Below, piece by piece: positions 6,776-8,836 of a stretch of 39,414 nt of DNA. Under the pieces are notes generated by a model. It was not told the DNA's origin. It did not search any database and saw only the letters and a program-made list of their open reading frames with translations. Location of the stretch: positions 1 to 39,414 of the forward strand of contig JAFAYA010000020.1 in the NCBI GenBank assembly GCA_019240635.1, given 5' to 3'. Origin of the DNA: Acidisphaera sp. Its GTDB lineage: Bacteria; Pseudomonadota; Alphaproteobacteria; Acetobacterales; Acetobacteraceae. A program made the translations under genes and the position numbers. Numbering within the stretch: the stretch's first letter is position 1; each line of letters begins with the position of its first letter.

Positions 6776-7717
6776 TCAAGGGGCGCAGATGGCGTCGATC
6801 TCCTGGCGCTCCGCGTCGTCCAGGCTCCAGTCGCCGGCCCTGACGTTCGCGTCCAGTTGCTCGGGCCGGGTGGCGCCCGCGATGACGCTGGCGACCGGCG
6901 GGTGCGACAGCAGCCAGCTGAATGCCAGCTCGAGCAGCGTCCTGCCGCGCTCCGTCGCGAAGCGTTCCAGCCGCTCGACGATCGCCCAGTTGCGCTCGCT
7001 GATGTAGCGGTCGGCGAGCCGCTGGGTCTTGGTCAGGCGCGCGCCCTCGGGCATCGCGGCGTCGCGCCGGTACTTGCCGGTCAGCAGGCCGCTGGCCAGC
7101 GGGAAATACGGCAGCAGGCCGAGGCCGTACGCCTGCACGGCGGGCAGCAACTCGCGCTCCAGCCCACGCACCAGCAGGCTGTACTCGTCCTGGCAGGAGA
7201 CGAAGGCGTTCAGCCCAAGCTGGCGCGCCGTCCACTGCGCCTCCACGACCTGCCAGGCCGGCAGGTTCGAGCAGCCGACGTAGCGCACCTTGCCGGCCCT
7301 GATCAGGTCGTCGAGCGCGCGCAGCGTCTCCTCGATCGGGGTGCGCGGATCGGGCTGGTGCATCTGGTAGAGGTCGATCCAGTCGGTGCGCAGCCGGCGC
7401 AGGCTGTCCTCGACGGCTTGCATGATGTAGCGCCGCGAGGCGCCGATCTTCACGTCGACGTCGTCCATCGCCATGCCGAACTTGGTCGCCAGCACGATGC
7501 CCTTGCGCGCATCGCCGAGGATCTGGCCGAGGCACGTCTCCGACCCGCCGCGCTCGCCGTACATGTCGGCGGTGTCGAGCAGCGTGATGCCGAGATCGAG
7601 CGCCTTGTGCACCACGCGCCGGCTCGCCTCCAGGTCGATGCGGCCGCCGAAATTGTTGCAGCCCAGCCCGATCGCCGAGACGCGCAGGCCGGAGCGTCCG
7701 AGGTTGCGAAGCTGCAT
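6776..7717 (-). CDS. Aldo/keto reductase
   Basis: 313 aa NADP-dependent (beta/alpha)8-barrel oxidoreductase. The catalytic tetrad is visible: D48 (in LLDTAD), Y53 (DMYGE), K79 (ATKFG) and H120 (YQMHQPD). GCNNFGGR near the N-terminus and the late VASVIAGATRPEQL segment (cofactor-binding loop) fit the AKR family with YccK/Tas-like members. ATG 7717 has GGGAGA about 7 bases upstream on its strand. A small inserted element separates it from the upstream DUF1194 gene; before that insertion the two would have been about 21 bases apart. Substrate unknown, probably a small aldehyde or ketone. Confidence 0.92.
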   Translation of the reverse strand: MQLRNLGRSGLRVSAIGLGCNNFGGRIDLEASRRVVHKALDLGITLLDTADMYGERGGSETCLGQILGDARKGIVLATKFGMAMDDVDVKIGASRRYIMQAVEDSLRRLRTDWIDLYQMHQPDPRTPIEETLRALDDLIRAGKVRYVGCSNLPAWQVVEAQWTARQLGLNAFVSCQDEYSLLVRGLERELLPAVQAYGLGLLPYFPLASGLLTGKYRRDAAMPEGARLTKTQRLADRYISERNWAIVERLERFATERGRTLLELAFSWLLSHPPVASVIAGATRPEQLDANVRAGDWSLDDAERQEIDAICAP

Positions 7718-7738
7718 CGCGGGGTCTCCCTGTCGCGC

Positions 7739-7891
7739 CTAGTGGTCCGATCGCTGCAGTCGGTTAACCGACTGCAGCGCGAATCGGCCACAGGCAGACT
7801 CTCTGGTGGTGCGATTCACGATGCAGATGGCGCACCGGCCGATGCTCGGGCCCGCGATACGGGGAGCCATCCGCATCGATCGCACCACTAG
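7739..7891. mobile_element. Small MITE-like element with inverted ends and CTAG borders
   Basis: About 150 bases, too short to encode anything. The ends CTAGTGGTCCGATCG (7739-7753) and CGATCGCACCACTAG (7877-7891) are inverted repeats with 14 of 15 positions matching. Both borders read CTAG, which fits a TA target duplication as made by IS630/Tc1-type transposases; that family assignment is inference. Inside are a perfect 28-base palindrome (7752-7779) and a second inverted repeat (7806-7831 against 7866-7888) that makes up the right half. The right border supplies the TAG stop of the DUF1194 gene. A transposase in trans would be needed; none is in this window. Confidence 0.75.
7752..7779. repeat. 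Perfect 28-base palindrome inside the inserted element
   Basis: The left half-site is CGCTGCAGTCGGTT and the right half is its exact reverse complement, with the centre TTAA at 7764-7767. It has no spacer, so it forms a cruciform rather than a looped hairpin. It lies just inside the left terminal repeat of the 7739-7891 element. Confidence 0.9.
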
Positions 7892-8643
7892 AGCCGGCTC
7901 GGCGGCGGCAAGTCGAGGGCGGCGATCTCGCTGATCAGCTTGCGCGTGATCGCTTCGCCGAAGCTGTGGAAGTCGTGCACCTCCAGCACGAAGCTGCCGG
8001 TGCCGCCGGTCACGTTCTGCCGATAGTAGTTGGCGAGCCCGCCCTGCGGCTGGACGTGCGCATAGGTCCAGGAGACCGGGTGGTCGTTGATGATCGCCAG
8101 CCCGTTGATGGTGATGCCGGACCGCACCGCGTCGTCGCGCGCGGTGTTGACGTCGCGGCCGGCATTGTTGGTGCCGTCGCCGCAGACGTCGATCACCCGG
8201 CGCGGCGTGGTGAAGCCGCTCTCGGCCAGACTCTGTACCGCGCGGTCGATGCCGGCGCCGATCGCCGTGCGCCCGTAGTAGGAGCGCGGCGCGGCGACCA
8301 GGCGGTTGACGAAGTCCCGGGCGGTGGCTTCGTCGCGGATCACCGTCCAGTCGAGCACGGTGCGCACCTCGCCCTCGCTCGCGAACTCGATGTAGCTCAC
8401 CGCGATCGCGCCGACGGTCCCGCCGTGGATGGCGGCGAGCACCTGCTGATCGGTGAACGCCGCCGCGTAGCCCTGCTTCTGCAGCTCGAACTCGCTGTCG
8501 TCGATGCTGCGCGAGACGTCGGAAACCATCGCCAGCGTCATGTCCACCGGCTCCGCCGCGCGCAGCGGCGAAGTGCTGACGAGGCAAAGGGCCGCGAGCA
8601 GAACGCCGCAGCGGTTGGCGGCGCGGCGGGATAATGCGCGCAT
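7888..8643 (-). CDS. Secreted von Willebrand factor A-type protein, DUF1194
   Basis: 251 aa. A signal peptide (about 1-30, ending PLRAA) sends it to the periplasm or outside. The mature protein is a single vWA domain. The metal-ion-dependent adhesion site begins DVSRS at 42-46 (DxSxS), followed by a conserved Thr/Gly region (GRTAIGAGID) and VIDVCGDGTNN, the usual DUF1194 run. vWA domains bind partner proteins through a bound metal. No function is established for this family that I can name. ATG 8643 is chosen because GGGAGG stands 8 bases upstream and the signal peptide starts there. The TAG stop lies within the border of the 7739-7891 element. Confidence 0.88.
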   Translation of the reverse strand: MRALSRRAANRCGVLLAALCLVSTSPLRAAEPVDMTLAMVSDVSRSIDDSEFELQKQGYAAAFTDQQVLAAIHGGTVGAIAVSYIEFASEGEVRTVLDWTVIRDEATARDFVNRLVAAPRSYYGRTAIGAGIDRAVQSLAESGFTTPRRVIDVCGDGTNNAGRDVNTARDDAVRSGITINGLAIINDHPVSWTYAHVQPQGGLANYYRQNVTGGTGSFVLEVHDFHSFGEAITRKLISEIAALDLPPPSRL

Positions 8644-8836
8644 CGGCCGGACCTCCCGTGACATGCCGGCGGATTGTCCGGCGCGGCATGCCCGGCGTCA
8701 AAGCGGAAATGCCGTGCCGCTTCGCCGTAAGCCGGCCGCGCCTTCAAGTCTGCGGGAGAGGCGCCCGGCAACCGGGACCTAGGACATTGCGTTGGCGTAT
8801 CCGCCTCCGGCCGAAGTGGACCCAAGGAGTGGACCG

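Follow-up and report, generated by a model that had tools for sequence, protein, structure and literature searches.

The 153-bp element that lies between the DUF1194 gene and the aldo/keto reductase gene of this Acidisphaera sp. contig is best explained as a non-autonomous, MITE-like repeat of Acetobacteraceae, which would be mobilised in trans, inserted at CTAG and retained mainly at stop codons and intergenic CTAGs. We assign this reading as a whole a probability of about 0.86. The relevant features of the window, which is the entire stretch of 39,414 nucleotides that was analysed, are as follows.

7739-7891, no strand assigned: the whole element, 153 bp including both CTAG borders, non-coding.
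7739-7753, plus strand: left terminal inverted repeat CTAGTGGTCCGATCG, matching the right end at 14 of 15 positions.
7877-7891, minus strand: right terminal inverted repeat CTAGTGGTGCGATCG (read on the minus strand), matching the left end at 14 of 15 positions.
7742-7791, plus strand: hairpin A, predicted from the fold and from the covariation that this hairpin shows in other genera, with a foot of GTGG/CCAC and CCGAT/ATCGG and imperfections in between.
7801-7893, plus strand: hairpin B, predicted from the fold, with arms at 7801-7837 and 7860-7893.
7888-8664, minus strand: DUF1194 gene, encoding a VWA-like protein of 258 aa (Pfam DUF1194, 6.7e-65).
7888-7890, minus strand: TAG stop of the DUF1194 gene, lying inside the right CTAG and thus supplied by the right-hand border of the element.
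6776-7717, minus strand: aldo/keto reductase gene, 313 aa (Pfam Aldo_ket_red, 6.6e-73), downstream of the element as the genes are read.
7726-7730, minus strand: likely ribosome-binding site GGGAG of the reductase, judged from the sequence, intact between the element and the ATG.

Direct reading of the sequence placed CTAG borders at 7739-7742 and 7888-7891, and comparison of the two ends revealed 14 matches over the first 15 bases and 24 over the first 32, which confirms the bordered architecture with matched inverted ends described in an earlier sequence-only reading. For a given pair of ends, a 14/15 match has a chance of ~4e-8 if equal base frequencies are assumed. The transcribed strand of the element is predicted to fold into two adjacent hairpins, with a free energy of -101.9 kcal/mol compared to a mean of -61.1 kcal/mol for shuffled sequences (z -9.4), and the apical palindrome of hairpin A (7752-7779) is a perfect one of 14 bp. 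An Rfam scan of the element gave two matches, both far below the gathering score, and no curated model fits.

The sequence-only reading had proposed a search of the genome for the same ends, and these do recur across it. When this genome (2.39 Mb, 72% complete) was searched by BLAST with the element as query, 32 matches at 18 distinct places were obtained, and the element is therefore not a chance palindrome. Ten of these copies are full length (152-156 bp), one is shortened, four are cut by contig ends and three are partial; the family consensus adds two weak fragments. Three further full-length copies are found in the one congener compared, Acidisphaera sp. CP_BM_RX_R8_15 (G001), whose DUF1194 locus matches the record of that name without a difference over 3,288 bases. 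With the whole element as the query, only two of 40 relatives gave a match, both belonging to this genus. The 15-base end CTAGTGGTSCGATYS is present in 29 of 397 Acetobacteraceae genomes, representing 18 of 102 genera, compared to two genomes (read from the table) for a reversed-pattern control. The search called 105 elements, 72 of them with both ends located; as they were gathered by the exact CTAG-bearing end, which left out own-genome copies with altered ends (e.g. L005 and L011), statistics on the borders are biased. Among the 72 two-ended elements, 19 measure 110-113 bp, 24 measure 122-123 bp and 11 measure 152-156 bp.

A search of plasmids with the consensus of this genome found nothing, and one with typed ends of other genera gave weak matches. 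A 102-bp, CTAG-bounded repeat with related ends is present on pMNOD03 of Methylobacterium nodulans (L391:3001-3102), and one-ended related copies occur on rhizobial plasmids of Rhizobium, Sinorhizobium and Mesorhizobium (L396-L401), all outside Acetobacteraceae. The phage collection searched gave no match. One contig catalogued as viral, IMGVR_UViG_3300031758_009995, carries a full-length 123-bp element of the type found in genus g118 (L395:10700-10822). In another, IMGVR_UViG_3300021060_000040, two inverted ends related to those of the family, CTAGTGGTC.AAATC.RACGCTTGGTA.CC, bracket ~2.96 kb (L394:5732-8691) that encodes a TPR protein of 504 aa, with a weak match to a TIR effector in PADLOC, and a protein of 173 aa. 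No transposase was recognised between these inverted ends, nor was one seen between paired ends in the regions read.

Other copies of the family support mobility. In genus g118, a 123-bp copy lies between CTAGs at the stop codon of a gene in genomes G346, G388 and G218, and G282 has the same flanks without the element, with a single TAG, reading GCCGAAATAG-AGGCGC. G412 also has a bare TAG, but is rearranged downstream. The gene thus ends in a TAG stop in both the empty and the occupied state. The base preceding the TA is A in the empty genomes (ATAG) and C in the occupied ones that were read (CTAG), so that one substitution must be assumed on a branch. At a second locus, a tandem pair (237 bp) is present in G388 and absent from G282, with an untidy junction. 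Moreover, one copy in the genome of the window (L003) sits inside a gene for a CorA-type transporter. Once its flanks are joined at a single CTAG, the reading frame stays open for at least 635 codons and runs off the start of the locus. Of 11 loci from other genera, 10 hold homologues with which the joined frame can be aligned across the junction without a gap there; two of the homologues were tested and both match Pfam CorA. Copies also decay in place, because at another g118 site all three genomes compared contain diverged copies, and that of G388 has lost the half that contains hairpin A.

At the window site, the reductase ATG lies 21 nt beyond the left CTAG of the element, with GGGAG 8 nt ahead of it. 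The repeat family, the empty site of the other copy and the CorA-type copy together support the proposal that the element inserted in the TAG stop of the DUF1194 gene and that target duplication rebuilt this stop. The reductase adjoins DUF1194 in the same orientation in 43 of 82 DUF1194 loci; once the locus in the window and five duplicate genomes are set aside, there remain 37 distinct relatives, in which the gap, measured from the end of the protein match, is at most 100 nt in 14 (smallest 25), 0.7-1.3 kb in 16 and between these ranges in seven. As 14 of the 37 keep a gap of at most 100 nt, gene order suggests that an ancestral DUF1194-reductase unit with a short junction is likely, though not universal, in support of the two-gene operon that had been postulated. 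None of the 18 DUF1194-reductase gaps read among relatives holds an end like that of this element. In the congener G001, the junction is free of the element, and a different palindrome-rich sequence of about the same length occupies it (CCAGGGCTCTGCCCTGG..., L311 about 1330-1480), and hence it is no clean empty site. The look for empty sites in relatives thus succeeded at other copies and gave a mixed outcome at the window site itself, where the sole congener compared lacks the element. A similar-looking palindrome-rich sequence was noticed by eye at the DUF1194-reductase junction of another relative (L275), and the sequences at both junctions may be other repeats. The 17-base core of the congener's sequence was not found in 438 kb of this genome or in the G104 and g118 stretches.

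The hairpins follow a recurring layout, as read from the ends of 89 loci (L083-L171): hairpin A, a short linker and then hairpin B, which ends in CCACTAG. Throughout the family, hairpin A has a GTGG/CCAC foot, a mismatch, a CCGAT/ATCGG segment and a variable apical stem, in addition to a TGA bulge on the 3' side. When the 72 two-ended elements were folded alone, 47 formed two separate stems of at least 12 pairs each, 24 formed one and a single element formed three; some of the one-stem elements are full length and others are single hairpins of 59-82 bp. In the apical stem of 26 hairpin A sequences from many genera, 10 of 12 pairs show changes on both sides. The covariation score over the whole hairpin is 0.391, compared to 0.145 after shuffling, and the signal is lost when the partner is slid by one to three columns; the shuffle figure is not a probability, because related copies share history.

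These sequences were chosen because they carried the 5' foot and, by a loose criterion, the 3' foot, a selection that favoured the bulge side and left the apical stem unbiased, so that the foot pairs and the bulge say little in this alignment. Five of the 31 representative hairpins were left out of it, namely the B hairpins L033, L057 and L058, and L086 and L104 of other length. L086 is a perfect hairpin with neither mismatch nor bulge, and therefore speaks against strict conservation of these features. When no selection was made on the 3' side, the mismatch-plus-bulge fold was found in 55 of 157 distinct ends, the remainder of which includes the B ends, one per element. The paired changes could also arise from palindrome repair by template switching. 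Nevertheless, the recurrence of the same mismatch and bulge in several genera suggests that the fold of hairpin A may itself be under constraint.

Removal of nine orthologous repeats and of 12 elements lying too near a contig end reduced the 105 elements to 84 unique copies, of which 41 have an end that forms a TAG stop for a called gene. Genes were called by a home-made codon-score script, which placed zero elements inside genes, a figure that is not exact since L003 lies inside one. CTAG is ~15-fold depleted in 438 kb of this genome (79 observed against 1163 expected from composition), and 24 of the 77 CTAGs scored there resemble element ends. In the background controls, from which such end-like CTAGs were set aside (14 in G104 and 24 in this genome), the CTAGs outside called genes that serve as stops number 16 of 45 in G104 and 11 of 38 in this genome, or 27 of 83 pooled. 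Fisher's test gave p 0.04 for the elements against the pooled background and p 0.19 against G104 alone. A control drawn from the flanks of the elements, with six stops among 60 CTAGs (16 of them within genes) and seven more set aside, would look stronger, but its loci are biased. Most of the stop-codon pattern is explained by a rare CTAG target together with loss of gene-breaking insertions. Targeting specific to stop codons was considered and found not to be needed, as the difference from background is small.

Several borders show arrangements of their own. At L010 (1502-1657, G000:C112), the element lies between a gene ending in GTC TAG and an ATG 4 nt past its other end, and a Shine-Dalgarno-like GGGAG is separated from that ATG by the element, at a distance of about 150 nt; the flanking genes resemble glycolate oxidase subunits on inspection by eye. 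The start of a called gene likewise falls no more than about 1 nt from the far end at L031, L032, L149 and L170. Two called genes that converge on the L169 element each take their stop from one of its ends, as though a CTAG that served both genes as a stop had been divided, and L009 nearly shares this arrangement, with a second stop in another CTAG just past its right border. At the right end of a related element, L057 (G064:C22), an apparent IS5-type insertion sequence, recognised by eye, starts exactly at the CTAG border.

Altogether, we propose that the element, which contains no gene, owes its movement to a transposase supplied in trans, which would recognise the ends GTGGTSCGATYS and probably the hairpins too. 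Insertion at the rare tetranucleotide CTAG would leave a CTAG on each side, by duplication of either TA or CTAG. Where this target contains a TAG stop, both ends of the element would spell TAG, and the interrupted gene would keep its stop and its length. Insertions inside genes would mostly be lost, and for this reason copies would survive at stop codons and intergenic CTAGs. In the window, the insertion would separate the DUF1194 stop from the reductase, which appears to retain its own ribosome-binding site, and co-transcription probably continues through the two mRNA hairpins, with a possible effect on expression.

The borders bear on the length of the duplication and on the parent transposase. 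The 85 listed pairs with TA at both ends, in which some elements are counted from both ends, comprise 78 with CTAG on both sides and seven that differ at one end only. With CTAG on either side of almost all copies, a duplication of 2 bp (TA) and one of 4 bp (CTAG) both fit the borders; one copy in the genome of the window, which has a left border of CTAG and a right border of CTAC, leans towards TA. We call the element MITE-like.

A parent of the IS630 family, with a 2-bp TA duplication and a preference for CTAG (an IS630/Tc1-type MITE), may be considered a tentative candidate. It agrees with the TA found at both borders of nearly all copies and accounts for the CTAG/CTAC copy without mutation; IS630 itself has a CTAG preference, and IS630-type genes are present in the congener and in nine of 10 other carriers. 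However, no DDE_3 gene was found in the 72% complete genome of the window, and paired ends of this kind were absent from the 34 loci examined of 59 IS630-type matches, some of which are cut by contig ends. The IS630/Tc1 parent with matching inverted repeats that the sequence-only reading had inferred is thus not supported. Nor was a transposase with these ends seen among the end matches read, and inspection by eye found none among the open reading frames of long elements with the same ends (L107, L108 and L111, which are single-ended, and L103, with two copies).

An IS5-type MITE that duplicates 4 bp (CTAG/YTAR), in the manner of MITEPsy1 from Pseudomonas syringae, is unlikely, yet it is a live rival because MITEPsy1, for which its authors give 'IS5?', has a duplication of CTAG or YTAA (PMC3189936). 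The 78 pairs with CTAG on both sides and the single TAG at the empty site fit such a duplication, whereas none of the 85 listed pairs has matching YTAA or TTAR borders at both ends. Both repeats are short and non-coding, with inverted ends and insertion at CTAG (or YTAA for MITEPsy1; PMC3189936), but the ends themselves differ, and the 4-bp duplication shown for MITEPsy1 compares to either TA or CTAG here. Moreover, MITEPsy1 was shown to move in the laboratory, whereas the Acetobacteraceae family is known here from sequence alone.

It seems improbable that the enzyme mobilising the family is a transposase of neither the Y1/RAYT nor the IS630 type which recognises DNA hairpins in their folded form. 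Under this explanation, the foot, the mismatch and the 3-base bulge would be kept while compensatory change rewrites the apical stem. If true, a hairpin-reading enzyme would amount to a route of mobilisation not described before, one that targets CTAG and finds a natural landing place in stop codons.

Still less probable is a repeat of the REP/BIME kind, mobilised by a RAYT (Y1) transposase which recognises hairpins in single-stranded form. The bulged and mismatched hairpins kept through compensatory change would suit such an enzyme, and GTAG REP elements, which form hairpins, often give flanking genes their TAG stop, so that stop-codon supply has a precedent (PMC3733652). In comparison with the GTAG REP elements described there, the present elements share the hairpins and the frequent supply of TAG stops, but are longer and carry inverted CTAG repeats on both sides rather than GTAG at one end. 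In addition, Y1_Tnp was found in only one of 12 carrier genomes and not in the other 11, and on these grounds a RAYT parent was rejected. Finally, it is very improbable that the element is not mobile and represents a conserved structure for regulation or termination at the ends of genes. The strong hairpins at the 3' ends of genes and their covariation would fit such a structure, but are set against many unrelated loci, empty sites, the insertion inside a gene (L003) and decaying orthologous copies in one genus; the element may still have regulatory side effects.

RIME elements are intergenic repeats with large palindromes, as are the elements of this family, the likeness being one of architecture. 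They are named, as intergenic mosaic elements of rhizobia, in PMC2573895. The Correia/NEMIS, ERIC and RUP repeats are about 107-155 bp long, with TA termini and stable stem-loops in transcripts (PMC2229807); our family resembles them in size, in the TA at its termini and in its stem-loops, but differs, by that description, in its unrelated hosts, in the two adjacent hairpins that it commonly forms and in its near-strict CTAG target. Among the matches listed, literature listings covering titles and the starts of abstracts, with most subscription journals lying outside them, gave no description of the family. The repeat family therefore appears to be undescribed in Acetobacteraceae, although its kind, MITE-like, is already known.

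The finding adds an apparently undescribed repeat family, the end of which is present in at least 18 genera of Acetobacteraceae, and provides a clear example of a CTAG-targeting element that uses TAG stop codons as low-cost landing sites. It also raises the question of what enzyme mobilises a hairpin element with a CTAG target in genomes that mostly yielded no Y1 transposase. Furthermore, insertions at tight gene junctions represent natural experiments on the translation of a second gene that lies behind as many as 150 bases of hairpin.
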